Source: Deltaproteobacteria bacterium (GTDB lineage Bacteria > Myxococcota_A > JAADFL01). Taken from it: a stretch of DNA of 14,626 nt. A model generated the notes under the pieces. The model did not search any database, was not told the origin of the DNA, and was given only the letters and a program-made list of their open reading frames with translations. Position 1 is the first letter of the stretch; the number at the start of each line of letters is the position of its first letter. The stretch covers positions 1 to 14,626 of the forward strand of contig JAADFL010000178.1 in the NCBI GenBank assembly GCA_013152945.1, given 5' to 3'. This document shows positions 212 to 14,484 of this stretch, one piece after another. The position numbers and the translations under genes were made by a program.

Positions 212-473
212 CCGTCCCCTCTGGGTCCCCGTCCCCTCTGGGTCCCCCCTCTGGGTCCTGGCTCCGCCGACCCCGTGTCGCCAGCCACCCCGAACCCCCT
301 CCGTCCCCTCTGGCCGTCCCCTCTGGCCGCCCTCTGGCCGGTCCCCTCTGGCCTCCCCGTCCCCTCTGGCCTCCGTCCCCTCTGGGTCCCCGTCCCCTCT
401 GGGTCCCCCTCTGGGTCCTGGCCCCGCCGACCCCGTGTCGCCAGCCACCCCGAACCCCCTCCGTCCCCTCTGG
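212..473. repeat. ~101-bp direct duplication within the array
   Basis: The segment 212-313 (102 bases) recurs at 373-473 (101 bases). By eye the copies differ only by one missing C in a C-run and one T-to-C change (GGCTCC versus GGCCCC). Each copy holds three CCCTCTGGG units, then the non-octamer stretch around CCGCCGACCCCGTGTCGCC, then another octamer. The near-identity suggests a recent duplication by slippage or unequal recombination. Confidence 0.9.
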
Positions 474-500
474 GTCTCCCTCTGGGTCTCCCCTCTGGGT
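216..500. repeat. C-rich CCCTCTGG repeat array
   Basis: The octamer CCCTCTGG occurs 14 times between 216 and 500, mostly inside GTCCCCTCTGGGTCC or GTCCCCTCTGGCC units with irregular spacing. Open frames run through it on both strands, but they are proline/serine-rich or glycine/arginine-rich translations of the repeat, change character abruptly at its edges and have no convincing start signals, so I do not call a gene here. The plus strand is strongly C-rich and the minus strand G-rich. C-tracts at 216-219, 227-230, 233-236 and 244-249 (spacers 7, 2 and 7) satisfy the standard G-quadruplex rule on the minus strand. The same pattern recurs at 377-409. Confidence 0.9.
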
Positions 501-543
501 CATAAATTCATTATTGCTCTGCTTAGGCTTAACCTGTTATTTG

Positions 544-549
544 TATAAA
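544..549 (+). promoter_or_regulatory. possible -10 box before the large lipoprotein gene
   Basis: TATAAA at 544-549 lies in the AT-rich stretch between the C-rich array and the gene starting at 599. I see no good -35 hexamer at 16-18 bases upstream, so this is weak. The transcription start would fall near 556, leaving a leader of about 43 bases that contains the GGAGG at 586-590. Confidence 0.25.
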
Positions 550-598
550 GCACGTGATTTCGGATTTCATACCCGAGCACACACCGGAGGAATGTTGC

Positions 599-3226
599 AT
601 GGAAAAAAAATATTGCATGGAAAAAATAATCTCCATTACAGCGATCCTTGTTCTTTCGCTTGGTGGATGGGGCTGTAAGAAATCGACAATATCACCCTAT
701 GCCGGACAGAAGGTAGCGCCGGTGCCACCTGGATGGAGGCCGCCTCCGCCCATAGGCACCAAAGGATACATGGGACCGCCTCCCAGCGCGCCGATGCGCA
801 TGTCTCCATATTCGGCACCCACATCCAAAGGCGTACGAAGGCAGAGGAGGCTCAAGAGAACCAGTGATCAGCCGTTCAAAAAGGAACTCGCCAAATTCAT
901 GCAGGACAGGAAAGGCAAGATTCTCTTCATTTACAAGAAGGGTTTTCGTGAAAATTTTGGAGATCTTGAAAAGAGGATCGTGTACTATGATGACAAGAAA
1001 GTTAAAGAATCCGCTGTAATGCTTTCGAAACCGGCGGGTCAGGATGACTCCGAAAAAGCCCTTGCAAAATACCTTGAGGACAAGGGGGTGAAATATGTGC
1101 TCATCGACCGGTACGTGATTCATACCGTTGGTTGGCTCGACGATAATGCCGACCAAATCCTCCACAGGATGAGCTGGGGATGGCCACTCCGCCGATTCCA
1201 CCCCAAACTGCTGGGCCGAACATTCCTCTTGTACGTCATAGCACCGCCGTTCATCCTTAATCAACACGACGGCCAAGCCATGGTTGACTATGCCAGGGCG
1301 GCATTGTCCGGCAATCGAATAGAATTGAAGACATCACCTATTTTGGACCACGCCGGAGGAAATGAAGATATCGAAGTGGCAATAAGCCTAAGAAAATTCT
1401 CTGCCACCCGGATCCCGGGCAGTGTCAAGAGGGGAATCAACAAGAAGACGGGCAAACCAAGGTACAGGAGGGCCGGCCTTCATGGAAGACGCATAATAAT
1501 CAGATGGGCATCCGGAACAAATCTAAAGGATGCCCTTGACAGGGCGGTTACAGGACTCAAGAGGGGTTGGAAGACAAGAAGAAAAAATGCAAAAACCCGA
1601 TATGGTGTAGACCTTGCAGAAGATCTTGCACAGGCTATATCCGGTATGGAAATAGAACTGGATGTAGTTTATGACAAGGCGAGAATCACGGACCGGACCG
1701 AAAGAAGGCTTCACGAAGCAATCGAAATGGGTGTCGACGGTATTTTCCTCGAATATATGAAAAATGGCCACTTGAGACGTTACAAATTGCCGCCTGCATA
1801 CCCTATTCAGCGCCTCGATTATGGCGACAAGTGGAAGCTGAAGGGTCCGGTGATACTAGCCAGACATTTGAGCCAGGCATGGGCAAAACTGGCACCCGAT
1901 GCATGGAAAGATGACAATGTAACCTTCGGCAGATTCAGAACGAGGTCATTTCTCGAAGCTGAACCAGGCGGCAAAGTAGTGTCGACATATCGAGGCACTC
2001 CCTTGATTTACCTCCACCAGGTCACAAGAAACAACCTTATCAATGCACTGAAACTCGGCTGCAACTATCTTGTTCGCAACCAATTGCCGGACGGCCAGTT
2101 CAGGTACAAATATTGGGCTCACCGGGACAGGTGGGTCAGGGGTAACAATATTGTCCGACACGCACTGAACCCATACACGGTGCTTATGGCCGAACAATTT
2201 GCACCCGATCCCAAATGGACGGCTTCTGCAAAAAAGGGAATTGATTATACACTTCATCACATGAAATGCGAAGGTCAGGAAGATTCGAGGATTTGCTACA
2301 TCTGGCACAAGGATACACCGGCCAAGTATGAAAACGCCAAGGTCGGCACGGTAGCGGTTACTATCCTGTCAATGCTAAGACTCAATGATTTTGAAAAGCT
2401 CACAACAGGTTACAGGGATACACTGCGCAGTCTGGGCAATTTCCTGGTCTACATACAGGATCCGAATGGACATTTCAGGCAATACTATGTTCCTGCAGAT
2501 CATCCATATTATGGCTGCACCAATGCCATCTTCCCAGGCGAAATCATGTTTGCCCTGTCAAGGCTCTATTCCTATTTCAAGGATGATAGATTTAAAACCG
2601 CCTTTGAAAAGGCTTTCCGATATTACAAGGAGTGGTGGAAGTTACAAAAGGCCAAAGAGCAAAAAGACGGAACCTACACTGAAGAGGAACGGGCCGACAT
2701 GGTGGGCTTCGTGCCATGGCAATGCATGGCCATGGAAGACGCGTACGGATGGAGCAAAGACAAGAAATATGCGGACTTCGCCTTGGAACTTCAACTTTGG
2801 ATGGACGGTCACTTCCTATATACCCCCATGCGTTCCGCATACCCGGACTACCTGGGGGCTTCGTTCAAGTTCCACGGTGAGCAACCAGCAATCAATAGCT
2901 GCGGTTATACAGAGGGATGTGCAGCGACCTATTCCATTGCAAAGAGAACCGGAACCAACAGGCCTTTGTTGCGTGATCACCTGCTCTGGGGCTTGAGATT
3001 CGCCATGCAACTACAATACAGGGACATTAAAACTACAGCATATTTCCTTCCCAACCCGGCAGTGGTTCTCGGAGGATTCAGATATTGCCTTAACAGACTC
3101 AGGCTACGAAACGACTACTCGTACCATGCACTATCCGCGATATACCAAGGACTGAAATTCCTCGATCCCGGTGATTATGCATATGCAAAGGACCCCGGCA
3201 TGATGTTCCCGGATTCACAAAAGTAA
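599..3226 (+). CDS. Lipoprotein, AMMECR1-like plus helical-toroid domain
   Basis: 875 residues, exact function unknown. ATG 599 is chosen because GGAGG (586-590) sits 8 bases upstream; a GTG at 554 would add 15 residues before the signal peptide. Residues 8-26 form a hydrophobic signal ending in Cys26; the lipobox (GGWGC) is imperfect, so lipidation is likely rather than certain. Residues 30-75 are a Pro-rich linker. Residues ~255-455 resemble the AMMECR1 fold: an EIELDVV strand (351-357), MGVDGIFLEY (377-386) and the terminal APDAW...FRTRSFLE segment (432-453). Residues ~475-860 look like an alpha/alpha toroid of the glycan-epimerase or glycoside-hydrolase kind, with repeated helices and motifs such as LPDGQFRYKY (496-505) and DPNGHFRQYY (621-630). 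Known toroids of this type act on glycans or prenyl substrates; I cannot assign a substrate. It stands alone and converges on the minus-strand block. Domain calls are from pattern only. Confidence 0.8.
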   Translation: MEKKYCMEKIISITAILVLSLGGWGCKKSTISPYAGQKVAPVPPGWRPPPPIGTKGYMGPPPSAPMRMSPYSAPTSKGVRRQRRLKRTSDQPFKKELAKFMQDRKGKILFIYKKGFRENFGDLEKRIVYYDDKKVKESAVMLSKPAGQDDSEKALAKYLEDKGVKYVLIDRYVIHTVGWLDDNADQILHRMSWGWPLRRFHPKLLGRTFLLYVIAPPFILNQHDGQAMVDYARAALSGNRIELKTSPILDHAGGNEDIEVAISLRKFSATRIPGSVKRGINKKTGKPRYRRAGLHGRRIIIRWASGTNLKDALDRAVTGLKRGWKTRRKNAKTRYGVDLAEDLAQAISGMEIELDVVYDKARITDRTERRLHEAIEMGVDGIFLEYMKNGHLRRYKLPPAYPIQRLDYGDKWKLKGPVILARHLSQAWAKLAPDAWKDDNVTFGRFRTRSFLEAEPGGKVVSTYRGTPLIYLHQVTRNNLINALKLGCNYLVRNQLPDGQFRYKYWAHRDRWVRGNNIVRHALNPYTVLMAEQFAPDPKWTASAKKGIDYTLHHMKCEGQEDSRICYIWHKDTPAKYENAKVGTVAVTILSMLRLNDFEKLTTGYRDTLRSLGNFLVYIQDPNGHFRQYYVPADHPYYGCTNAIFPGEIMFALSRLYSYFKDDRFKTAFEKAFRYYKEWWKLQKAKEQKDGTYTEEERADMVGFVPWQCMAMEDAYGWSKDKKYADFALELQLWMDGHFLYTPMRSAYPDYLGASFKFHGEQPAINSCGYTEGCAATYSIAKRTGTNRPLLRDHLLWGLRFAMQLQYRDIKTTAYFLPNPAVVLGGFRYCLNRLRLRNDYSYHALSAIYQGLKFLDPGDYAYAKDPGMMFPDSQK

Positions 3227-3478: not shown

Positions 3479-4162
3479 TTATTGTTCCTTGGTAGCCTTA
3501 GCCTTACCCTGCAGCTTGAGGCCGTGGCAACGCATCGCCCTTGCACTGAGCATCTTGTAAAGCTTACTGCTGCCCTTGAGCTTGGCCCTTTCATCGCCGA
3601 ACAACAAAGACAATTCATGGTACCCGGCCGGGCCACTCGACTTGTATATAGCGATAACCTGCCATGGCCCGAGTTTGGCGGCAACGCACGCATCTTTTCC
3701 CTGCTCCTTCATGACCTGCCTAACAATAACAGAGGCATTGGCTAAATATCCCTTCAAATTGCCGAATACCGCAGCCATGATCCTTGGTATGAAGGCATTG
3801 ATTCTTTTCTCCGCACCCTTTTCAAATGTGGCACGCCACTCGTGAGAAGACACCAGCCCTGATTCCTCACCCACCCTCACGCTGAAAGGCGTTCCTTCAG
3901 GCGTACGGATATCCATCTTGTGCATGGTCAAACCAAGTATGTGCGGTTCCGTACCCAAATCATTGTAGTTGAGTTTTTTGTACCTAGCCTCCACCGTATC
4001 CCATTTTTCCACGCCCGCCTTCAACAAGGCACTGATCTTGGCATTGTTTTTTGGCTTGGTCGCCTTTTCGGTTTGGACAACCTTTTCGTGTTTGCAAGAT
4101 AACGCCATCAGGAAAAGGCAAAGAAAAAGGGCCACGGGCCGGAATAAACGGATTTTCTTCAT
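3479..4162 (-). CDS. Lipoprotein of unknown function, operon gene 4
   Basis: 227 residues. The ATG at 4162 follows GGAG by about 7-8 bases, 17 bases after the ATPase gene stop. Residues 1-22 are a clear lipoprotein signal with lipobox ALSC and acylated Cys23. The mature part opens with a Lys-rich stretch (24-42). The rest has predicted amphipathic helices, a hydrophobic stretch around INAFIPRIMAAVFGNL (121-136), two further cysteines (159 and 212) and a basic C-terminus. I do not recognise the family. As last gene of a tight operon with a membrane-anchored secretion-type ATPase and another lipoprotein, it probably works in the same envelope process. That role is inferred only from position. 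Confidence 0.8.
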   Translation of the reverse strand: MKKIRLFRPVALFLCLFLMALSCKHEKVVQTEKATKPKNNAKISALLKAGVEKWDTVEARYKKLNYNDLGTEPHILGLTMHKMDIRTPEGTPFSVRVGEESGLVSSHEWRATFEKGAEKRINAFIPRIMAAVFGNLKGYLANASVIVRQVMKEQGKDACVAAKLGPWQVIAIYKSSGPAGYHELSLLFGDERAKLKGSSKLYKMLSARAMRCHGLKLQGKAKATKEQ

Positions 4163-4179
4163 GTTGATGCTCCTTTCCT

Positions 4180-5910
4180 TTACCCCAAAACCCTTTTCAA
4201 TTCCTCAAGGGTCGTCAAGCCTCTCAATGCCTTTTCTGCCCCGTCCGCGATCATGGGCCGCAACACCGCATCTTTTAATATGCTGAATTCCATTGCCCTA
4301 TCTCCCTTGGACGCATTAAGCCTGGAACGAACCTGGTCAGTCATCTTCAACAGCTCATCCAGTACAAGCCTCCCTTGGTAACCTGCCATTCCACATGCCT
4401 GGCAACCATGTCCGGCCATCCACTCGGTCTTGTCCGGTAGGCTTTGTCCATTCTTGGCCAATTCTTCCGCCATCCAGTTACGCAATGGCTCGGACGGCCT
4501 GGAAGGTCCGATGCAAGACATGCATGACCTTTGGACCAGCCTTTGCGACAAGACTCCCTGCACGGATGAGTACAGCACGAAAGGTTCTACCCCTAACTCA
4601 AGCAATCTTTCGAATACACCTGGCGGAGAAGGTGAATGAACAGTGCTAATGAGCAAATGACCGGTTTGACCAGCCTGTATGGCCAGCTTTGCAGTCTCCG
4701 GGTCCCTTATCTCTCCGACAACGATTACTTCCGGGTCCTGCCGAAGTATGGAGCCCAATACCTTGTCATAGGTCAAGCCCTTGTCACGGTCTATCTGAAT
4801 TTGTGTTACACCATCTATCTCGTGTTCAACAGGATCTTCGACAGTCACGATGTTGACAGTGCCCTTTGTCTGCTCCCTTATGTAATTCAGGGCCGAGTAT
4901 ATGGTCGTGGTCTTTCCGCTTCCCGCAGGTCCGCAAAGAAGTATGGTTCCATGTCTACGGTTGAGCATCTCCTTCAAATTGGACAAGGTATCATCGGATA
5001 GGCCGAGCTGTATCAAGTCATATCGCAGGCCTGATGTGTCGAACACACGGAGTACCACCTTTTCCGAATCATGGCTCGGGGTGACCGAGACCCTCAAGTC
5101 GGTGGCCACTCCCTCGGCCCTGAACAACACCTGTCCGTCCTGTGGAATTCTCCTCTCGTATATCTTCATGTTGGCCATTACCTTGATTACGTTTATGACC
5201 GCCATCTCCTGCTCTATCGGCAATTCAATGACCTTGTACAACTTGCCGTCTATCCTGAAGTTGACGGCAACGGCTTTTCCTTCCCTGCCGATATGAATAT
5301 CACTAGCCCTCCAGCGCACGGCCCTGGCCGTTATCCTTTCCACTATCCTGTTGGTGTCACCGGGATCGTTCTTCAGCAATTTGTTTATTTCGGACTGGAA
5401 TTCCTCAATGGGAAGCTTGCCCGGCGGAGGCGGCAAGCCTTCCTCCATGTCCAGACTCTTGGGTTCTACCCGGGCTCTGATCCCCCTTACCCCGGAAATA
5501 ATGAACAGAGCGGCAATCACCAAGAATACACCAAGAAGTATGTAACGCCATTTTGCAAGGGCGATGAACCTTGGAGATGAACGACGTTTCAACTCTTTTT
5601 TCATTTCCTCATGTGCCTTGTGCAACCCGGACAACCGGTCCTGCCACTTGTTTCTTTCCTGTTCATTCGGAGCAGTGGCGAACTTCCTATTCAATTCCAA
5701 CTGCTTCATGTCGTAAGAGGCGACCTCGTCTTCCAGCATCTTGGTGGGAAATAGTCTCTTGTCCGAGTAACTCGTCGGCTCTACGAACTTACCGAGGTAG
5801 TTATCTATGGCAGCCGAAATATCTATTGAATCCAGACCGGCCAATGAAAAAGGCATGATAAAAAAAATACCAAGGATGGCGATCACCGACCCGGTTACTA
5901 TCTTTACCAA
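4180..5910 (-). CDS. Membrane-anchored GspE/PilB-like secretion ATPase
   Basis: 576 residues. The start is TTG at 5910, with AAGGA about 9-10 bases upstream; no in-frame ATG keeps the first membrane segment. The C-terminal two thirds is a type II secretion/type IV pilus assembly ATPase: RASDIHI (201-207), Walker A GPAGSGKTT (327-335), Asp box VTVEDPVE (355-362), Walker B VIVVGEIRD (395-403), His box HLLISTVHS (418-426), and a zinc tetracysteine (Cys463, 466, 503, 506) as in GspE/PilB. Such ATPases power pilin assembly or protein export from the cytoplasmic face. The N-terminus is unusual: instead of an N1D/MshEN domain it has membrane segments at ~6-25 and ~122-142, with a charged, probably coiled-coil region (~55-112) between them that should lie outside the cytoplasm. 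No gspF, pilin or secretin is nearby. Family assignment is firm; the partner machinery is unknown. Confidence 0.93.
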   Translation of the reverse strand: MVKIVTGSVIAILGIFFIMPFSLAGLDSIDISAAIDNYLGKFVEPTSYSDKRLFPTKMLEDEVASYDMKQLELNRKFATAPNEQERNKWQDRLSGLHKAHEEMKKELKRRSSPRFIALAKWRYILLGVFLVIAALFIISGVRGIRARVEPKSLDMEEGLPPPPGKLPIEEFQSEINKLLKNDPGDTNRIVERITARAVRWRASDIHIGREGKAVAVNFRIDGKLYKVIELPIEQEMAVINVIKVMANMKIYERRIPQDGQVLFRAEGVATDLRVSVTPSHDSEKVVLRVFDTSGLRYDLIQLGLSDDTLSNLKEMLNRRHGTILLCGPAGSGKTTTIYSALNYIREQTKGTVNIVTVEDPVEHEIDGVTQIQIDRDKGLTYDKVLGSILRQDPEVIVVGEIRDPETAKLAIQAGQTGHLLISTVHSPSPPGVFERLLELGVEPFVLYSSVQGVLSQRLVQRSCMSCIGPSRPSEPLRNWMAEELAKNGQSLPDKTEWMAGHGCQACGMAGYQGRLVLDELLKMTDQVRSRLNASKGDRAMEFSILKDAVLRPMIADGAEKALRGLTTLEELKRVLG

Positions 5911-5939
5911 TTTTTGCGATCCTTTCCGGCCGAGTTTAC

Positions 5940-7088
5940 CTATTTATCGCAAACATCGCCTATACCGTCCTTGTCCTCGTCCGCTTGCTCAGGGTTGGGT
6001 GAATCAGGACAGTTGTCACAAGCATCCCCTATTCCATCGAAATCCGTGTCGACCTGGTCCTGGTTGGCAATATTCGGGCAGTTGTCCAGGCCGTCTCCCA
6101 ACCCGTCTCCGTCTGTGTCAGACCATTGTTGGCGATCATAGGGAAATGCATCTTCATCGTTCTTTACAGAGTCGTTGTCCTTGTCTTCATCGAAATCGTC
6201 CGATACTCCATCACCATCGAGATCATGGTCTGCTGTAGCGCTCAAGATGACAGGTGGTATTTCAGTCCCCAGTCCCACGGGAACATTGGGCACAATCAAT
6301 GTCTGAAGTCCTGTTCCGGACACAAACATCGTATAGACCCCGGTTTCGAGTTGCCCTGTTCTGAAGCGCCCGCTCGAATCGGAGACCGCAGTGTAGTTCA
6401 AACTTCCTTCCCTGAATACCACCATTGCCCCTACTGCCGGGCCTTTCCCCCTAACATAGACCGAACCCGCAATCTGCAGGTTGGTAGCCTGGCGCAGTTC
6501 GATGTTCATTTCGTTCGAGTCCTTGATTTGGATAGTTGCAATACCCTCACCGTGTCTTATTGCAAAAAGATTCGAAGCGCCCTTTTGTACTCGACGCAAT
6601 GAAAATGTACCGTCCAGGCCCGTCCTTGTACTTATCCTCGAGAATGGAATAAAAACCTCTGCCCCGATGGAAGGATTACCACCTTTTATCGTAACCTTGC
6701 CCCTTATCTCAATTATCGGCGGCTCAAGGTGAATCCTCCCCAGGTAGAGGGCATCGGAGTCACTGTTCAACCCGACTCCTTCCACCCTTGCCGCAAGACC
6801 TTCGACCGGGTCGAAAAGGTCGAGGACCACCGGACCAGCAGGGACATCTTTGAATATGAACATCCCGCCGGGACCTGCCTTTGACAACACCTGACTTCCG
6901 GTAACAAGACTCACGAGGCAATTATTCAGGTTTTCTGCCCCGTTCTTGGAACTCTTCTGTGGAATAATACTTACTTCACCGGGGTTGAGGCCAAGCGCAG
7001 GATTGTTCACATCGAAGTTGCAACCCGGACCGGCTATCAGTACAGCCACAATAATCAACGATGAAAAAATTACTGTTTTCTTCTTCAT
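5940..7088 (-). CDS. Lipoprotein, CarboxypepD_reg-like and TSP3 repeats
   Basis: 382 residues. The ATG at 7088 is preceded by AGGAGGGG, which overlaps the stop codon of the upstream gene, implying translational coupling; an upstream TTG at 7103 would lie before this SD. Residues 4-22 are a signal ending at Cys23 (AGPGC, an imperfect lipobox). Residues ~41-283 hold about three Ig-like carboxypeptidase-regulatory-type repeats, marked by a Gly plus Phe strand (DGTFSLRRV 159-167; SGRFRTGQL 239-247). Residues 287-382 are thrombospondin type 3-like calcium-binding repeats: DHDLDGDGVSDD (287-298), DTDGDGLGDGLDNCP (324-338), DTDFDGIGDACDNCP (347-361), DEDKDGIGDVC (370-380). Such tails occur on secreted or outer-membrane proteins and bind Ca2+. 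It is probably an envelope structural or adhesive partner of the neighbouring ATPase and PEGA protein. No enzyme motif is seen. Confidence 0.88.
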   Translation of the reverse strand: MKKKTVIFSSLIIVAVLIAGPGCNFDVNNPALGLNPGEVSIIPQKSSKNGAENLNNCLVSLVTGSQVLSKAGPGGMFIFKDVPAGPVVLDLFDPVEGLAARVEGVGLNSDSDALYLGRIHLEPPIIEIRGKVTIKGGNPSIGAEVFIPFSRISTRTGLDGTFSLRRVQKGASNLFAIRHGEGIATIQIKDSNEMNIELRQATNLQIAGSVYVRGKGPAVGAMVVFREGSLNYTAVSDSSGRFRTGQLETGVYTMFVSGTGLQTLIVPNVPVGLGTEIPPVILSATADHDLDGDGVSDDFDEDKDNDSVKNDEDAFPYDRQQWSDTDGDGLGDGLDNCPNIANQDQVDTDFDGIGDACDNCPDSPNPEQADEDKDGIGDVCDK

Positions 7089-7096
7089 GGCCCCTC

Positions 7097-8602
7097 CTAC
7101 CAAGTTCCAGTCACACCAAAAGTAAAACCGTCCCGGATCACCCCGGTAACAGGCATCACTCTGCCCTGGTCTCTTGATCCGGAATCATTACCTTCCAGCA
7201 GGTCCCATACGAGAAGCCCCAAGCCTCCTGCGGCAAAGGCCCCTGTCAGGCTCCAGAACACAGTGGCGGCAAGGCCGTAATCATCAGCATCCTGCTTGTA
7301 AGCAGATGCCCTGATACGGTTGTGAACAGAGAGGCTGTTGCCGTCGTCCTCTGCCGACATTCCCTTTGACGTATATACCGAGCCGCCGATAATGCAAAGC
7401 GCGCTTGCTCCAAAAAGACCATATGCCACAGGCATGACCCAGACAGGCGTCCCTTTCCTCGTTCCCGGTCCGGACGACGTTGCCGATACAGGTTGCCCGA
7501 CCACGGGTACGGCTTTTTTTGTCGCTTCAACAACCTGTTTTCGCTCCTCCTGGTTCTTCGAAACTTCGGGAGTTTTCCGCTTTTCTTCCTTGCTGACCGT
7601 TGCTTCAGTGGGTGGGCCGGATTTTTCTTTCTTCTCCACCTTTGAAACAGGAACCGAAACGCCTTTTGTCACCTTTGCATGCTTTTCAGACTCGGCCTTT
7701 TTCTGTATGGCGTTTGCCTTTTGTTCCATAGTTTTCTCTTGCACCCGTTTTACTTCACCCTTTTTCTTTATGGGCACCAATGGCGGCAATGCCGGTTTCT
7801 CCTCATTGTCCTTGGCGCTTGCAACTCCGGATGCCGCTTTGTTTTCAGTTACTGTAGAACCTTTTTCCAGGATAACCGCCAGTGTCTTCTTTCCCCTTGG
7901 AACCGGCAGGACCTTTTTCCACACCTTGAAGCCGTTCTTTACAACCTTCAACCTCCGGATACCGTTCGCCACGTGAACATATTTTTTCAGGGGTGAAACA
8001 CCAACCAGCATATCATCCACGTACACCAATGCGCCGGGCTCCGACACGTTCAGCTTCAACCTGCCCTTCAACGCCGGATCGACACCGGTGAGCAAATATT
8101 TTACGGCCCTTCTCGTTGTTCTGCGAAGGCCGGGACGTCCGGCCAGTTTTTCACGCAAATGAGCCCTTACAGGTTGCCCCTTGGCAACGTCCACCAAAAG
8201 CATCTTGATACTGAAAGATCCCTTGGGGCCCTTCTTGACCATGGGAAGAATCGCCAGATCCGCCTTCAGCGCTTTTCCAAGGTCGATCGCACAGTTCAAA
8301 TCCGTACAGCTTTCGAAAGCAGCAGAGACTCCCTTGGTCAGCTCCCTGGTATTTGCTGCAGCCCGTTTGGTGGAATAACCCTTGAGCCGGTTCACAGCAA
8401 CGGTTATCCACTTGACCAGGTCGTTTTTCAGGTTCTGGCTTACGCCCCTGCCGTCAACCGGAAACACTGCAACATTCAATTGTCTCTTCAATCGTTTGCC
8501 GTAAGCCCCTCCTTCAAAAATCGTGAAGAACAAAACAGCAATACCAATTGATATAATCATGACCCTGTACCGGACGGAAGCAAGTTTTCTTCCTTCCCTC
8601 AT
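7097..8602 (-). CDS. TolB-like/PEGA-domain membrane protein
   Basis: 501 residues. I chose ATG 8602, with GGAGGGTGG just upstream; an earlier ATG at 8659 would put 19 charged residues before the signal segment and has its SD too close. Residues 12-30 are a signal or membrane anchor. Residues ~41-170 resemble the N-terminal domain common in myxobacterial PEGA proteins, with VAVFPVDGRG (44-53) and a Cys99/Cys104 pair before a GKALKADLAILP segment (109-120). Residues ~182-248 are a PEGA domain (LKLNVSEPGALVYVDDMLVG, 182-201), associated with surface-layer or envelope proteins. Then comes a long Lys/Glu/Val-rich linker (251-380) and two hydrophobic segments (~388-410 and ~444-467). First gene of the four-gene operon, 104 bases downstream of the ABC permease. 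The linker could span the periplasm. Function unknown. Confidence 0.85.
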   Translation of the reverse strand: MREGRKLASVRYRVMIISIGIAVLFFTIFEGGAYGKRLKRQLNVAVFPVDGRGVSQNLKNDLVKWITVAVNRLKGYSTKRAAANTRELTKGVSAAFESCTDLNCAIDLGKALKADLAILPMVKKGPKGSFSIKMLLVDVAKGQPVRAHLREKLAGRPGLRRTTRRAVKYLLTGVDPALKGRLKLNVSEPGALVYVDDMLVGVSPLKKYVHVANGIRRLKVVKNGFKVWKKVLPVPRGKKTLAVILEKGSTVTENKAASGVASAKDNEEKPALPPLVPIKKKGEVKRVQEKTMEQKANAIQKKAESEKHAKVTKGVSVPVSKVEKKEKSGPPTEATVSKEEKRKTPEVSKNQEERKQVVEATKKAVPVVGQPVSATSSGPGTRKGTPVWVMPVAYGLFGASALCIIGGSVYTSKGMSAEDDGNSLSVHNRIRASAYKQDADDYGLAATVFWSLTGAFAAGGLGLLVWDLLEGNDSGSRDQGRVMPVTGVIRDGFTFGVTGTW

Positions 8603-8680: not shown

Positions 8681-8710
8681 AGTTTAGCAGCATGGTTCTC
8701 TGTGCGTCAA
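8681..8710 (-). promoter_or_regulatory. candidate promoter of the four-gene operon
   Basis: On the minus strand, TTGACG (8710-8705) and TAAACT (8686-8681) are separated by 18 bases, placing transcription start near 8674. The -35 hexamer overlaps the stop codon of the ABC permease. A second possibility is TTGGGT (about 8680) with TTATAC (about 8654), also 18 bases apart. Either start lies upstream of ATG 8602. No strong terminator separates the permease from this operon, so read-through is also possible. Confidence 0.35.
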
Positions 8711-9522
8711 TAGTGAGTAAGTGTTCCATCTTTCTTGGCTCTTTTGACAGCCAGAGAAAATGATACCAAACCAACCGGCAAGGTGACTACCGTAAGTATA
8801 ACCAATGCATACAATGATTCAAGGGCATCGGACCATGGCCTGCCTGCGACCAGGACCAACCTGATCGCCTCCAGGGCATGTGTAATGGGCAATATTTCCG
8901 AAAACGGCCTTAACCAGTCCGGCAGCACCGAAATCGGGTAGATCACACCGCCCAGCAGGTAAGACAGTCCGCTCACCATCCATGTTATGGGTTCAAATCG
9001 TTTGAACACCATGATGAACGACGCCCCCAGGATACCTATCCCTGCAAAGGACATGACAGTCAACAACATCACGACAAGAGAGACGGGGATTCCAGAGGCA
9101 TGCAATGGAACGTCAAAGAAAATATTCCCCACCAGGAGCAGCAGGAAGACGCGGAATGATGTGAATATAAAAGGATACAATGAAGAGTATGCCACAAGTC
9201 CCGAAATACTCGTCCTGGTTACGAGCATTGCCTCCATGGTGCCGAGTACCTGGGCCTGTCTTATCTGCTGGGAAAATGCAGTCAACGCCACTGTCAAAAA
9301 ACTGGAGAAGGCTATTCCAGTCAAAGCAAAAGAAAAATAATCGCCCCCGTATTTGGCAAGCCGAGGCTCGGCGGAAGGACCTATCAACTTTGCAAGAAAA
9401 TAAAATGAAAAAACAGTGAACAGCATGCCCGTAAACTGAAATATGAAGTTGAGCCGGTAACTCAGCTCTTGTATGAAATCCCTCTTCATGAAGGCCAGGG
9501 CCTTTGAAAGGATCTTCACCAT
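8707..9522 (-). CDS. ABC-2 type transporter permease
   Basis: 271 residues. It has about six membrane segments (roughly residues 24-45, 61-84, 106-133, 144-167, 175-196 and 235-258) and the ABC-2 signature region GGVIYPISVLPDWLRPF (~191-207) followed by an ITHALEAIR motif. This is the membrane half of an exporter of the multidrug/polysaccharide/NatB type; the substrate cannot be read. The ATG at 9522 lies only 1 base after GGAGG. The GTG at 9519 has better SD spacing and overlaps the upstream ATPase stop as GTGA, so the true start may be 9519. The overlap implies translational coupling to the ATPase gene. Confidence 0.92.
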   Translation of the reverse strand: MVKILSKALAFMKRDFIQELSYRLNFIFQFTGMLFTVFSFYFLAKLIGPSAEPRLAKYGGDYFSFALTGIAFSSFLTVALTAFSQQIRQAQVLGTMEAMLVTRTSISGLVAYSSLYPFIFTSFRVFLLLLVGNIFFDVPLHASGIPVSLVVMLLTVMSFAGIGILGASFIMVFKRFEPITWMVSGLSYLLGGVIYPISVLPDWLRPFSEILPITHALEAIRLVLVAGRPWSDALESLYALVILTVVTLPVGLVSFSLAVKRAKKDGTLTHY

Positions 9523-10334
9523 TCCTCCTGCCCGAATACCTTTTCGACCTCGGGCATTACCTGTTCCACCTCTCCAAAAGCTGCACAGGTTCCTTTTTTC
9601 AACAACAAGACCTGGTCGGCAACCTCGCTCGCTTCCTCGAGATCGTGTGTAGCCATGATAAGTGTAATCTTCTCATTCTCCAGCATATCCTGCTTCAAAA
9701 ACTTCCTCATCCCGGCGGCCGAACCCGGGTCCAGGCTCCGGGTAGGCTCATCGACGAGCAGAACTTTGGGCCGGTTGAGCAAGGCCCTTGCCAGGGCGAG
9801 TCTCTGCTTGATACCTGTGGACAGATCCCTAAAAGGCCTTTTTGCTTCATTTGAAACATGTACCTTTTCCAGAACCTCGTTTACGCGTTCTTTCTTTTCT
9901 CTTCCACGAAGGTCCTGCAACATGGCAAAGAACTCGATATTTTGCCATGCACTCAATCGCCAGTAGAAAGATCTTTCGTCGCATATGGCGAAACCAATCA
10001 GTTTCTGCACCAGGTCGGTCTGTCTCTTGACGTCCAGGCCCATGACCATGGCGCGTCCAGAGTCAGGCTCCACCAACCCGGAAAGAACCTTGAGCAAAGT
10101 GCTCTTGCCCGCGCCGTTCGGTCCAAGCACTGCCAAGGCGCTGCCTTTTCTTACAGTAAAATCTATGCCGTCCAGGGCCTTTATGTATTCCCCTCTCCCA
10201 AACGGAGCCTTCAAGAGATCGAGCCAGCCCCTGGCTGTTGGAAAACTCTTGGACAGATTATCGACCAGTACACCGGCACGATCCTCTTTTTCGCTGCGGT
10301 CCTGACCTTCCAATCTAATCCCCATCAAGCTCAT
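9516..10334 (-). CDS. ABC transporter ATP-binding protein
   Basis: 272 residues. Complete nucleotide-binding domain: Walker A GPNGAGKST (71-79), a divergent signature LSTGI (171-175, usually LSGGQ) before KQRLALARAL, Walker B VLLVDEP (191-197) with catalytic Glu196, D-loop, and His230 in the H-loop (MATHD). The LSTGI signature and the WRLSAWQNIEFF segment (125-136) are common in ATPases paired with ABC-2 permeases, which fits the overlapping next gene. The start is ambiguous: ATG 10334 or ATG 10325; a weak GGGA fits the latter better. A possible promoter facing this gene is TTGCAC (10405-10400), 17 bases, TAGACC (10382-10377), overlapping the divergent apbE-like promoter. The transported compound is unknown. 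Confidence 0.94.
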   Translation of the reverse strand: MSLMGIRLEGQDRSEKEDRAGVLVDNLSKSFPTARGWLDLLKAPFGRGEYIKALDGIDFTVRKGSALAVLGPNGAGKSTLLKVLSGLVEPDSGRAMVMGLDVKRQTDLVQKLIGFAICDERSFYWRLSAWQNIEFFAMLQDLRGREKKERVNEVLEKVHVSNEAKRPFRDLSTGIKQRLALARALLNRPKVLLVDEPTRSLDPGSAAGMRKFLKQDMLENEKITLIMATHDLEEASEVADQVLLLKKGTCAAFGEVEQVMPEVEKVFGQEEW

Positions 10335-12247: not shown

Positions 12248-12267
12248 TCAATTGAGTCACACCCTCC

Positions 12268-12343
12268 GTCCCTGCCTGTCGCTGCCTGTCGCCGTCCCTG
12301 CCTGTCCTGCCTGTCGCCGTCCCTGCCTGTCCTGCCTGTCCGG
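12268..12343. repeat. C-rich tandem repeat, three 25-26-bp units
   Basis: Three tandem units at 12268-12293, 12294-12318 and 12319-12343, each GTCCCTGCCTGTC followed by a second CTGCCTGTC, giving six CTGCCTGTC copies. The first unit has one extra G and the last ends in CCGG rather than CGCC. It lies 3' of mltG and upstream of the DUF4410-like gene. In composition and CCGTCCC phrasing it resembles the array at 216-500. No coding function is supported. The gap 12118-12378 otherwise holds the promoter and inverted repeat described separately. Confidence 0.88.
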
Positions 12344-13876: not shown

Positions 13877-13983
13877 ATAGCTTAGCCATCCATCATTCGA
13901 AATACATGATTCATCGCTTGCAGTAGATACACGACTTATGATAAAGGCGATTCAAATGATTAACCTACTGGGAGGGTGTGATC

Positions 13984-14484
13984 ATGGCAAAAAACATTCT
14001 TTCCGAAAAGGCACTTCTGGAAATCGTGGAAGAGATGAAGAAAAACTTCACCACTGCCGAATTCGTTGACAAATTCAAAGAGAAGCACAAAGACGACTGG
14101 CAGAAGGTGCATGACAAGTTTTCAGGCGGCCAGCGATTCCTCAAGGCCAGGCTCACCGATGTGGAGCAGGACACGATTGGGTACGTCAGGCATGCATTGA
14201 CCAAGCTCGCCAAGACTTACAAGGACAAGCTCCAGAAGAACAAGGACGGCACCTTTTTGATACCAGTCAAGAAGAAACCGGCCAATAAGGCTGCAAAAAA
14301 GCCGGCTAAAAAAGCCGCAAAGACACCAGCAAAGAAAACCACAAAAAAACCGGCAAAGAAGGCCGCAAAGAAACCGGCAAAGAAACCGGCAAAGAAACCG
14401 GCAAAGAAAAACACAAAAAAACCGGCTAAAAAGGCTGCAAAGAAACCGGCAAAGAAGGCCACAAAAAAGACGGCTAGAAAATAG
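13984..14484 (+). CDS. Histone H1-like DNA-binding protein
   Basis: 166 residues. ATG 13984 follows GGGAGGG by about 7-8 bases; a GTG at 13978 overlaps that signal. Residues 1-95 are a mostly helical, charged head domain I do not recognise. Residues 97-166 are a Lys/Ala/Pro tail with eight PAKK units (e.g. AKKPAKKPAKKPAKK, 128-142), as in eukaryotic linker histone tails and bacterial H1-like proteins. Such tails bind DNA through charge and can compact the nucleoid or alter transcription. The tail is encoded by near-perfect 12-base repeats (AAACCGGCAAAG), three in a row at about 14379-14415, so its length may vary between strains. A TATGAT at 13937-13942 may be its -10 box. It is transcribed alone, divergently from ruvX. 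Confidence 0.85.
   Translation: MAKNILSEKALLEIVEEMKKNFTTAEFVDKFKEKHKDDWQKVHDKFSGGQRFLKARLTDVEQDTIGYVRHALTKLAKTYKDKLQKNKDGTFLIPVKKKPANKAAKKPAKKAAKTPAKKTTKKPAKKAAKKPAKKPAKKPAKKNTKKPAKKAAKKPAKKATKKTARK

Follow-up and report, generated by a model that had tools for sequence, protein, structure and literature searches.

Among described systems, the closest to the locus considered here are the GspE/PilB ATPases (PF00437) of type II secretion and type IV pili, in which an N1/MshEN domain docks on GspL/PilM. For its surface proteins, comparison may be made with outer membrane exchange in Myxococcus, a two-gene surface system in which TraB carries TSP3 repeats together with a beta-barrel and an OmpA domain, and TraA a PA14-like part and MYXO-CTERM (PMC6372800). 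PEGA, in turn, is a domain of cell-surface proteins (PMC2447325). The locus lies on contig C178, which belongs to a genome bin of 4.84 Mb and 94% completeness, the whole stretch of DNA analysed (14,626 nt) being referred to here as the window. A first-pass annotation had proposed that four of its genes may be a single, undescribed envelope system, and the sequence bears out each of the four ORFs on the minus strand, with the coordinates it gave (Table 1). Its statement that no named system is known with this gene set holds: none was found, including in the literature, where nothing relevant turned up on PEGA in combination with lipoproteins or TSP3, on TM-anchored GspE, or on DUF1318 with AsmA. 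Apart from TSP3 repeats, the parts of TraA and TraB are absent here, and Pfam revealed no OmpA or PA14 domain in genes 1-4. The reading that we favour, with a probability of about 0.65, is that of a composite operon, in which a recurring PEGA-lipoprotein tandem has gained a rare self-anchored GspE-type ATPase, with gene 4 an orphan; the contacts and topology in this reading rest on prediction.

Table 1. Features of the locus in the window, and of the paralogous pair on contig C201 (positions on that contig).
Feature	Position	Strand	Basis or remark
DrrAB-type ABC ATPase	9516-10334	-	
DrrAB-type ABC-2 permease	8707-9522	-	
Gene 1, PEGA protein, 501 aa	7097-8602	-	Domain and sequence reading; paralogues on C201, C141
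PEGA domain of gene 1	7883-8059	-	PF08308 match
Gene 2, TSP3 lipoprotein, 382 aa	5940-7088	-	
TSP3 repeats of gene 2 (calcium-binding type)	5943-6224	-	
Gene 3, membrane-anchored GspE/PilB-type ATPase, 576 aa	4180-5910	-	
N-terminal module of gene 3, in place of N1/MshEN domain	5488-5907	-	Hydropathy, AlphaFold2
T2SSE ATPase core of gene 3	4192-5355	-	Contains Walker A (GPAGSGKTTT) and Walker B (VVGEIRD) motifs and four cysteines
Shine-Dalgarno of gene 4, AAAGGAAAGGAG	4170-4182	-	Motif at 4181-4170, overlapping gene 3 stop TAA (4182-4180)
Gene 4, orphan lipoprotein, 227 aa	3479-4162	-	
C201 PEGA protein	351-1745		3 nt ahead of the lipoprotein gene
C201 lipoprotein, 946 aa	1749-4589		

The close packing that the annotation had described was confirmed by the sequence, with 8 nt between genes 1 and 2 (7096-7089), 29 nt between genes 2 and 3 (5939-5911) and 17 nt between genes 3 and 4 (4179-4163), and with the Shine-Dalgarno of gene 4 lying over the ATPase stop codon. 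Gene 1 has a GGAGG ahead of its ATG at 8602, and gene 3 starts with a TTG at 5910, preceded by AAAGGA. As to the internal promoters or terminators that the annotation had named as able to split the genes, no strong minus-strand terminator-like site was found between the four genes, and counts of promoter-like and terminator-like sites across the region were within chance. Signal and TM prediction likewise bears out the proposed placement of all four products in the envelope. Together, the tight packing and the Shine-Dalgarno over the stop codon suggest coupled expression, making a functional link between all four genes plausible in this lineage.

The PEGA/TolB-like description of gene 1 survived in part. 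PEGA (PF08308) was matched above its cut-off, and the TolB-like half is based on a DUF2380 match below threshold (18.1 bits vs a cut-off of 30.1), the 'TolB-N-like' region with this match also having a conserved pair of cysteines. The N-terminus of the protein is predicted to be a signal peptide or TM segment, providing a hydrophobic export segment, and the PEGA domain is followed by a long K/E-rich linker, two C-terminal hydrophobic helices and an aromatic C-terminus. Gene 2 encodes a lipoprotein with Cys23, an FDxNNP motif, CarboxypepD_reg sandwiches and a TSP3 rod that carries no distal head domain; CarboxypepD_reg and TSP_3 were both matched above cut-off. Of the two calcium-binding surface lipoproteins that had been claimed, it is the one that has repeats of a calcium-binding type; the other, gene 4, has none. 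A candidate assignment of gene 2 as MtsC (NCBIfam) was set aside, its 61 bits being far below the cut-off of 350.

If the tandem is defined as a PEGA gene placed immediately upstream of a gene whose lipoprotein product combines a C..F(D)xNNP start with CarboxypepD_reg and TSP3, it occurs in the window and twice more in the same genome, on contigs C201 and C141, neither copy having a GspE gene or a fourth gene. On C141, the PEGA protein has a caspase-like N-terminal half (a label given by eye, with no Pfam match), and 122 nt further on begins a lipoprotein gene, which the contig end cuts off. All three PEGA proteins can be aligned across the TolB-N-like region, the PEGA domain and the C-terminal helices, and the three lipoproteins have in common their C..F(D)xNNP start, a CarboxypepD part and a TSP3 part. 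What follows the TSP3 part varies: the window protein has no further part, whereas on C201 there is an extension that is cysteine-rich and globular, and on C141 there are DT repeats with a kelch-like stretch. The C141 locus (L098 3869-7723, G000) has a sigma-70-family factor and an anti-sigma-like gene of the zf-HC2 type ahead of the caspase-like/PEGA fusion, which lies directly upstream of the TSP3 lipoprotein; it is apparently a regulated version of the PEGA-TSP3 lipoprotein pair. In this genome, lipoprotein genes follow PEGA genes far more often than they follow other genes. Of 21 PEGA genes examined, 15 had a neighbour on the same strand no more than 300 nt away, and in nine of these a lipobox protein followed, as against 7 of 70 other genes (Fisher p = 8e-5), this background coming from crude gene calling on fetched genome stretches that are a non-random sample.

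Across the phylum, single-sequence searches with genes 1 and 2 gave partial relatives only, and a profile built from the three lipoproteins retrieved near full-length relatives in two genomes of distant families, G334 and G297. In both, a PEGA/TPR-like protein, a Ser/Thr kinase and a CarboxypepD/TSP3 lipoprotein stand in a row. These loci resemble the window in combining a PEGA protein with a homologous stalk lipoprotein in an operon-like arrangement; they differ in the intervening kinase, in having a TPR-like region where the window has the TolB-N-like region, and in the absence of an ATPase. The G297 lipoprotein also bears a distal NHL head, whereas gene 2 has none. In G334, the end of contig C112 (L178) and the start of C71 (L177) carry the same lipoprotein sequence, so the kinase is probably followed by a tandem of two TSP3 lipoproteins that are paralogues. 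As a rule, the PEGA-lipoprotein tandem gives a way into the phylum's many PEGA proteins that still lack characterisation, as it predicts that each works with its neighbouring lipoprotein.

The annotation had offered gene 3 as an energy source, and its catalytic motifs are indeed intact. T2SSE (PF00437) was matched with 351 bits, and the protein shares with the type II secretion and type IV pilus ATPases the GspE/PilB core, Walker A and B, Asp and His boxes and the four-cysteine motif. In the PDB, sequence comparison gave GspE (4pht) as its best relative and fold comparison gave PilB (5tsh), to which the core is 38% identical. It departs from these ATPases at the N-terminus, where a hydrophobic anchor, a helical hairpin and a TM helix replace the N1/MshEN domain. 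Pfam gave no match before residue 186, and the module there comprises a hydrophobic helix (residues 2-23), helices at 48-110 and a second hydrophobic helix at 113-141 (AlphaFold2 mean pLDDT 74, low at residues 1-47 and 138-164). The positive charges (RGIRAR) after the second helix would put the core on the cytoplasmic side of the membrane, with the helices on the periplasmic side. Scaffold genes are also missing, with no GspF/PilC platform, pseudopilin or secretin gene beside gene 3 in the window. The architecture is a real variant, of predicted topology and putative function. A search for anti-phage defence components with PADLOC gave generic P-loop matches and none at family level.

Among 377 genomes of the phylum, an end-to-end relative of gene 3 was found in 'Myxococcales bacterium isolate SURF_8' alone, the other matches listed being confined to the core, and SURF_8 again provided the sole full-length relative in a scan of 84,980 species made with two peptide patterns. 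A tree of the core unites the window and SURF_8 ATPases with support of 100/100, although both are long branches, which tempers the composite reading; their common N-terminal layout speaks for real kinship. Other GspE matches were considered as family members and rejected: the top ORFs recovered all lacked the pair of hydrophobic helices (the motif filter skipped some loci, including SURF_8, which was read by eye), and the Omnitrophota, Anammoxibacter and betaproteobacterial matches (L071-L074) are ordinary cytoplasmic GspE/PilB proteins, at least two of them in pilus or type II secretion loci.

In SURF_8, the ATPase gene opens a different operon. It overlaps a DUF748/AsmA gene by 4 nt, after which come genes for two lipoproteins, the first with DUF1318 and the second with PD40/TPR; there is no PEGA or TSP3 gene. 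A genome of SURF_8's family, G001, has the same DUF748/AsmA, DUF1318 and PD40 order behind a divergent gene, and does so without the ATPase. As the PEGA-TSP3 pair also occurs elsewhere without it, both known homes of the ATPase are envelope-lipoprotein operons that exist independently. The DUF748/AsmA operon (L185 4151-12001, on contig C263 of G001; L070 9263-17236, in SURF_8) is conserved in this part of the phylum and recalls YdbH-YdbL.

That the SURF_8 ATPase again lies alongside outer-membrane lipoproteins counts to some extent against the composite reading, as the enzyme may serve such lipoproteins. Taken further, gene 3 might be the founding member of a family of GspE-type motors, self-anchored and equipped with a periplasmic coupling hairpin of their own, whose task would be to drive lipoprotein systems of the outer membrane instead of pili and which would plug into different envelope operons, PEGA-TSP3 here and DUF748-DUF1318-PD40 in SURF_8; we consider this proposal rather doubtful. 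Should the enzyme indeed link cytoplasmic ATP hydrolysis with envelope lipoproteins by way of its TM helix and periplasmic hairpin, it would represent a motor of the GspE family that operates free of any pilus or type II secretion scaffold. A working arrangement can be sketched in which the gene 2 lipoprotein would sit in the outer membrane, its TSP3 repeats forming a stiff, calcium-dependent stalk, and the gene 1 protein, after export, would be retained at the inner membrane through its C-terminal helices and act as the periplasmic partner of the lipoprotein (a tether, sensor or maturation factor). Gene 3 is predicted to form a hexamer anchored by its own TM helix, with a cytoplasmic core and a periplasmic helical hairpin. 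That such a hexamer could dispense with GspL or PilM-PilN adaptors and transmit ATP-driven motion across the membrane to some envelope partner is a tentative suggestion and the least supported of these steps.

An undescribed four-component envelope machine, confined to the window's own class and in which the ATPase drives the PEGA linker and two lipoproteins, is unlikely. The gene packing with its Shine-Dalgarno over the stop, the predicted envelope placement of all four products and the lack of a matching known system argue for it. Conversely, the quartet was found in none of 356-377 phylum genomes, and nor was a pairing of the ATPase with PEGA or with TSP3, these counts applying at phylum level since the nearest comparison genomes are 'same phylum' as the window; within the same genome, two further loci have the PEGA-TSP3 pair and no ATPase. 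The conserved co-occurrence that the annotation had proposed as a check thus failed at phylum level, where homologs are scattered and only the PEGA protein and TSP3 lipoprotein recur jointly. The quartet as a four-part system is weakly supported, and as a set conserved across the phylum it is rejected. Gene 4 has a lipoprotein signal, yielded no domain in Pfam and is present in 1 of 356 phylum genomes, namely its own; AlphaFold2 from the single sequence gave no usable model (pLDDT 40). An assignment of gene 4 as LolB1_Flavo (NCBIfam) was set aside at 18.7 bits, far under the cut-off of 50. As a four-gene system, the finding is weaker than it first appeared, and it is the PEGA-lipoprotein tandem and the self-anchored ATPase that are noteworthy.

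Transcription might also begin further upstream. The DrrAB-type ABC transporter genes lie on the same strand, 104 nt upstream of gene 1 and with no strong terminator in between, and could share a transcript with genes 1-4. A six-gene unit would then have the transporter export a small molecule or lipid whilst the downstream genes build or sense an envelope partner. We regard this as improbable, given that no ABC genes adjoin the paralogous pairs on C201 and C141 and that a promoter-like site (TTGACG-18-TAAACT, 8710-8681) falls at the gap, though such sites occur at chance frequency. That gene 3 acts in trans, as an accessory assembly ATPase for a type IV pilus or type II secretion platform encoded elsewhere in the genome, is very unlikely: its GspE/PilB-like core, closest in the PDB to PilB and GspE, and the presence of PilC/GspF (T2SSF) platforms at two loci only, C210 and C192, would allow it, but each platform already adjoins its own GspE/PilB, and gene 3 has a membrane anchor of its own and no N1/MshEN docking domain. 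A Tad-like pair occurs on C158, and no platform of C210, C192 or C158 is near gene 3. Three further GspE/PilB-like ATPases of the genome (G000), on C9, C77 and C143, have no adjacent platform gene, those of C77 and C143 forming a separate clade of their own.

Elsewhere in the window and close to the contig edge, G+C-rich tandem repeats occupy 208-626, just before an 890-aa lipoprotein-like gene; a 160-base unit is present there in 1.8 copies, together with sub-repeats of 12-18 bases (CCCCTCTGGGTCC). At 13978-14484, a 168-aa protein ends in a lysine/alanine/proline-rich tail with AKKPAKK repeats, in the manner of histone H1-type bacterial proteins. Between a DUF4410 lipoprotein gene and an MltG-like gene, the 25-base sequence CCGTCCCTGCCTGTCCTGCCTGTCG is repeated three times, nearly perfectly, at 12266-12340.
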